Below are positions 27,462 through 27,499 of a stretch of DNA of 39,143 nt, one piece after another. Location: positions 1 to 39,143 of the forward strand of contig SIRW01000100.1 of the NCBI GenBank assembly GCA_004366205.1, given 5' to 3'. The notes below the pieces were generated by a model. The model made no database searches. It was not told the origin of the DNA and worked only from the letters and a program-made list of their open reading frames with translations. A program made the position numbers and the translations under genes. The first letter of the stretch is position 1, and every line of letters starts with the position of its first letter. This DNA comes from Actinomycetota bacterium. GTDB taxonomy: Bacteria; Actinomycetota; Acidimicrobiia; Acidimicrobiales; CADCSY01.

Positions 27462-27499
27462 TTCACCCGCCCGAAACACGCGGTACACGGCCGGGAAAC
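27462..27499 (+). promoter_or_regulatory. GlnR-box-like operator upstream of glnB-glnD
   Basis: Four 5-nt half-sites with exactly 6 nt between each: TTCAC (27462), GAAAC (27473), TACAC (27484), GAAAC (27495). This is the spacing of the actinobacterial GlnR box (gTnAC-n6-GaAAC-n6-GtnAC-n6-GAAAC, 22-bp period). Both GAAAC sites are perfect; the two AC-type sites keep their AC. It lies 48-85 bp before the P-II start. The match is direct; binding by GlnR is inferred. Confidence 0.6.

Follow-up and report, generated by a model that had tools for sequence, protein, structure and literature searches.

The window, by which is meant the whole 39,143-nt stretch of DNA analysed here, carries the genes glnB and glnD on its forward strand. 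The glnB gene (27547-27888) encodes a P-II signal protein of 113 residues (Pfam PF00543, E = 4.1e-28, with further P-II matches in NCBIfam) and is preceded by a ribosome binding site, AGGAGG, at 27536-27541, 5 nt before the start codon. As read from the translation, the T-loop of GlnB retains the usual Tyr-51 position. The glnD gene (27888-30218) encodes a P-II uridylyltransferase/uridylyl-removing enzyme of 776 residues that exceeds the NCBIfam cut-offs of both NF002895 (798 bits, cut-off 631) and TIGR01693 (624 bits, cut-off 519) and contains the Pfam domains GlnD_UR_UTase, HD and ACT. These Pfam and NCBIfam assignments confirm the gene identities on which a preliminary description had relied when it placed a regulatory site before glnB-glnD. 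The GTG start codon of glnD shares one base with the glnB stop codon (TAGTG), so that the two genes form one translation-coupled unit. Upstream, in the same direction, lies the gene of a CoA-disulfide-reductase-like flavoprotein (26107-27456; Pfam Pyr_redox_2, TIGR03385 below its cut-off). No amtB gene was found next to glnB-glnD in the window. Elsewhere in the window, a perfect inverted repeat of 20 bp, with a loop of 3 nt (7185-7227), stands at the end of a gene and is probably a terminator.

The 90-bp gap between the flavoprotein gene and glnB contains a 38-base element, TTCAC-n6-GAAAC-n6-TACAC-n6-GAAAC (27462-27499), which begins 5 bp after the flavoprotein stop codon and ends 48 bp upstream of the glnB GTG. 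The layout of four half-sites with n6 spacers and two GAAAC elements 22 bp apart, as given in the preliminary description, is exact. The published GlnR consensus is gTnAc-n6-GaAAc-n6-GtnAC-n6-GAAAc (PMC10704036), with which the element agrees at 15 of 18 defined positions. Half-site 1 (TTCAC, 27462-27466) is of the a-type, and TTCAC or TTCAT occurs at the equivalent position in many relatives. Half-site 2 (GAAAC, 27473-27477) and half-site 4 (GAAAC, 27495-27499) are perfect b-sites, the former fitting the published GaAAc (PMC10704036), while the a-type half-site 3 (TACAC, 27484-27488) differs from GtnAC at two positions. All four are read on the forward strand. The element at 27462-27499 is very probably a GlnR binding site, as predicted from these letters, and as such it is an ordinary kind of GlnR site, here in the class Acidimicrobiia.

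The element is more than a chance match. GAAAC-n17-GAAAC occurs once in the window, where dinucleotide shuffles give an expectation of 0.01. The 3.44-Mb genome was scanned with patterns together with control patterns. The GlnR-type pattern with at most three mismatches gave three matches, the best of which was the operator in the window with one mismatch, and the reversed-pattern control gave none. When the downstream -10 element was included, there were four matches and none of the control, and the operator in the window was again the best, now with no mismatch. A weight matrix of 55 columns was built from 27 sites of other genomes, leaving out the home genome and two pattern matches that do not precede amt or glnB (L144, L145). 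It scored the operator at 34.0, the second-best place in the window at -6.9, and found no score of 8 or more in 8 Mb of first-order Markov sequence. Since the sites were selected with the pattern itself, the fixed columns of the matrix necessarily have high values.

Half-site 4 is followed, at a distance of exactly 10 nt, by a putative -10 element, CAACCT (27510-27515, forward strand). It conforms to NANNNT and is weak as a hexamer. Of 17 amt and glnB promoters selected by the box alone, all have NANNNT at offset 10 from the last GAAAC; each of the other offsets between 0 and 34 gave no more than 4 of 17. The same offset was found in 11 of 16 glnA promoters. A -10-like hexamer at this distance places half-site 3 at the -35 position. 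The a2 site has the corresponding position, at the -35 element, in the GlnR-activated amtB promoter of Streptomyces coelicolor, where a direct contact between GlnR and sigma has been proposed (PMC5826061). This correspondence suggests a class II activator promoter at glnB, in which the operator covers the -35 position at a fixed distance from the -10 element.

The -10 element is also the centre of a perfect palindrome, CCTGACGCCA-ACC-TGGCGTCAGG, with 10-bp arms and a 3-nt loop (27502-27524). Neither this palindrome nor the fixed 10-nt spacing had been mentioned in the preliminary description. If transcription starts after 27515, the left arm of the hairpin falls outside the glnB mRNA, and the hairpin would form only in RNA that reads through from the upstream gene. 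It is therefore possible that the palindrome is the terminator of the flavoprotein gene; a second operator is an alternative. A riboswitch-like element of the 5'-UTR was also considered and is unsupported, the RNA z-score being -1.96 and the palindrome not being seen in the promoters of relatives that were compared.

The home genome encodes seven proteins with an OmpR-type DNA-binding domain, one of which is a GlnR orthologue (G000:C119:4672-5349). Its best PDB matches are 8hih, 8hig and 8hml (E 1e-40 to 1e-33), well above MtrA; we take these to be GlnR structures, their PDB names being those of generic OmpR-type regulators. The protein aligns over its full length to the 8hih chain, and its DNA-recognition stretch, GGARTVDVHIRRLRAKLG, differs from that chain at just two positions. 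The Trans_reg_C domain scored 97.5 bits, and the N-terminal GlnR_1st domain 18.2 bits, which is below the 27-bit cut-off. In response regulators the acceptor usually stands where 8hih has the aspartate of LVDARND, and this column is not conserved in the GlnR proteins of Acidimicrobiia (L155-L184). GlnR orthologues are present in 53 of 59 relatives, one per genome.

The glnR gene directly follows one glnA gene, and a second glnA is divergent (G000:C119:4672-8270, L118). The order glnA/glnA/glnR is retained in most of the 20 relatives examined. A GlnR box common to both glnA genes lies between them, with a score of 29.2 and the 10-nt spacing to NANNNT. A further box precedes an amtB-glnK unit on another contig (C44), which includes a second P-II gene; this box is weaker (score 13.9) and also has NANNNT at the 10-nt spacing. 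The genome scan thus found boxes at glnA and amtB, where the preliminary description had proposed looking. The earlier statement that amtB is absent holds for the glnB-glnD operon but not for the genome, which has amtB-glnK on C44 with a box of its own.

Besides these sites, the only other good match in the genome lies on C101 (G000:C101:37960-38010, reverse strand, L012), flanked by a phoX-like gene and a pst cluster. It scored 21.3, has a -10 sequence TACGGT at the right spacing and precedes an open frame of 52 residues; the ATG of this frame would coincide with the start of the transcript or adjoin it. It could be either a GlnR or a PHO site. Low-score pattern matches on C54, C69 and C12 had no plausible -10 element at offset 10 and were set aside. 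Sites of equal score to the operator in the window were absent from coding sequence throughout the genome scan. This absence, and the presence of glnR in the genome, support the reading as a GlnR site that had been put forward from the letters of the window.

The motif of box, 10 nt and NANNNT was then searched for more widely. In 246 Acidimicrobiia genomes there were 32 matches, compared with none for the control, and 27 of the 29 loci examined lie directly before an ammonium transporter gene or glnB. In 198 Actinomycetota genomes there were 34 matches, again with none for the control; of the 22 loci newly examined, approximately 20 are followed by glnA, amtB, nirB, glnB-glnD or a gene of a glutamate-synthase-type amidotransferase, the nirB and amidotransferase names having been read from translations. 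GlnR was present in 30 of the 31 Acidimicrobiia genomes with the motif (29 strong matches, 1 weak). One genome (G270) has a good box before amtB, but the GlnR search of that genome gave no match. When amtB-glnB-glnD units of relatives were scored with the matrix, 37 of 82 first-gene promoters reached at least 5, while none of 39 internal genes did and there was none on the opposite strand. What the computation shows directly is the site itself, how it is conserved, its link with nitrogen genes, the constant spacing and the existence of a glnR gene.

Gene order around glnB-glnD varies among these genomes. Where relatives have an amtB-glnB-glnD operon, the box often precedes amtB, and a protein search for GlnD in genome contigs returned six loci, two of which have the box before amtB. 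Four relatives likewise have a homologue of the flavoprotein gene immediately before glnB-glnD. In G040, which belongs to another family of the same order, the succession is flavoprotein, box, glnB and glnD, with the box at the same offset and a score of 34.1 (L079). The order in G008 is amtB, flavoprotein, glnB and glnD, and G003 and G050 have flavoprotein, glnB and glnD with no detectable box there. The box also stands directly before glnB-glnD without amtB in four Actinomycetota outside Acidimicrobiia (L250-L253; families f107 and f111). The amtB-less arrangement is therefore unusual but not unique, since it recurs in G040 and L250-L253.

Taken together, we consider it highly probable that the two-box a-b-a-b GlnR operator and the -10-like element at 27510-27515 constitute a class II promoter through which GlnR activates glnB-glnD under nitrogen limitation. 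We infer from the foregoing that GlnR binds the site, that it activates rather than represses and that nitrogen is the signal. When nitrogen is limiting, the four 11-bp half-sites would be occupied by two GlnR dimers, both on the same side of the helix. The dimer nearer to glnB, covering the -35 position, would replace the missing -35 hexamer and recruit RNA polymerase. P-II and its modifying enzyme would then be produced under nitrogen shortage, together with the products of amtB-glnK and glnA, whose promoters have the same arrangement.

The possibility was considered that GlnR uses the operator as a repressor or dual site, with the -35 and -10 elements of the promoter inside the box, and turns glnB-glnD down. 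GlnR acts as both an activator and a repressor in Mycobacterium smegmatis (PMC3662644), and TTTTCA-n18-TACACG, a pair that poorly resembles promoter elements, overlaps the box. However, in all 17 promoters the -10 position follows the box by 10 nt, which is the geometry of an activator, and the amtB and glnA promoters, which share it, have homologues that are activated by GlnR in Streptomyces and mycobacteria (PMC10704036), which makes repression very improbable. That the box is nothing but chance or a relic, a GlnR-like sequence without function at glnB, is scarcely credible: G003 and G050 do have the same gene order without it, but the score of 34.0 compares with a next-best value of -6.9 in the window and with no value of 8 or more in the 8-Mb null, and G040, in another family, keeps the box between the same two genes at the same offset.

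It is also very unlikely that the box serves a different member of the OmpR family that recognizes 11-bp direct repeats, such as a PhoP-type regulator or the product of a short regulator gene that adjoins amtB-glnK on C44. The genome does have seven OmpR-type genes from which to choose, and at nitrogen promoters of Streptomyces the sites of PhoP overlap those of GlnR (PMC10704036). This overlap, and the position of the C101 match beside phoX-like and pst genes, were the reasons for considering a PHO box. For the site in the window a PHO box was rejected: GAAAC, the sequence of half-sites 2 and 4, is the b-site of GlnR, and the motif marks nitrogen rather than phosphate genes (27 of 29 and approximately 20 of 22 loci). 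The short regulator was rejected as the owner of the box on co-occurrence: it was found in only 7 of the 31 genomes with the motif and is missing from 24, whereas GlnR is present in 30.

The short regulator is an OmpR-type winged helix-turn-helix protein of about 175 residues (G000:C44:8489-9013, L011) in which most of the receiver domain is missing. It scores below all NCBIfam cut-offs, and homologues are present in 28 of 59 relatives (L185-L214). In the home genome, its stop codon and the GlnR-like box of the amtB promoter overlap. A speculative view, which we regard as rather unlikely, is that the P-II system of Acidimicrobiia comprises two GlnR-controlled units, PII/GlnD and AmtB/GlnK, the latter with this previously undescribed short protein as a dedicated regulator that may compete with GlnR or modulate it at the amtB promoter.

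Among the papers searched, none mentions GlnR in Acidimicrobiia. Under the preferred reading of a GlnR-activated class II promoter, the GlnR regulon, the a-b-a-b box and the -10 spacing extend to this class, and P-II and GlnD can come under GlnR without amtB. Moreover, with the rule of box, 10 nt and NANNNT, promoters for nitrogen assimilation can be found in uncultured Actinomycetota cheaply, precisely and with hardly any false matches.

The closest parallels in arrangement are G040 (L079) and L250-L253, which like the window have the box, 10 nt, NANNNT, glnB and glnD without amtB; L250-L253 lie outside the class of the window, and among the box-glnB-glnD loci only G040 shares the upstream flavoprotein gene. 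The amtB-glnK-glnD promoter of S. coelicolor resembles that of the window in its a-b pairs at an 11-bp pitch and in the a2 site at -35 (PMC5826061, PMC10704036), as well as in the control of P-II and GlnD and in the OmpR-type GlnR encoded in the genome. However, the S. coelicolor promoter has three boxes (a3-b3, a1-b1, a2-b2) and amtB as its first gene, whereas the window has two boxes and amtB lies outside the glnB-glnD operon, in the amtB-glnK unit elsewhere with its own box. In M. smegmatis the amtB-glnK-glnD operon is a GlnR target, and the GlnR site Gn2AC-n6-GnAACA consists, as in the window, of an a-type element, a 6-bp spacer and a b-type GnAAC (PMC3662644). The mycobacterial motif is a single 17-bp a-b unit, whereas the operator in the window is two such units in tandem.
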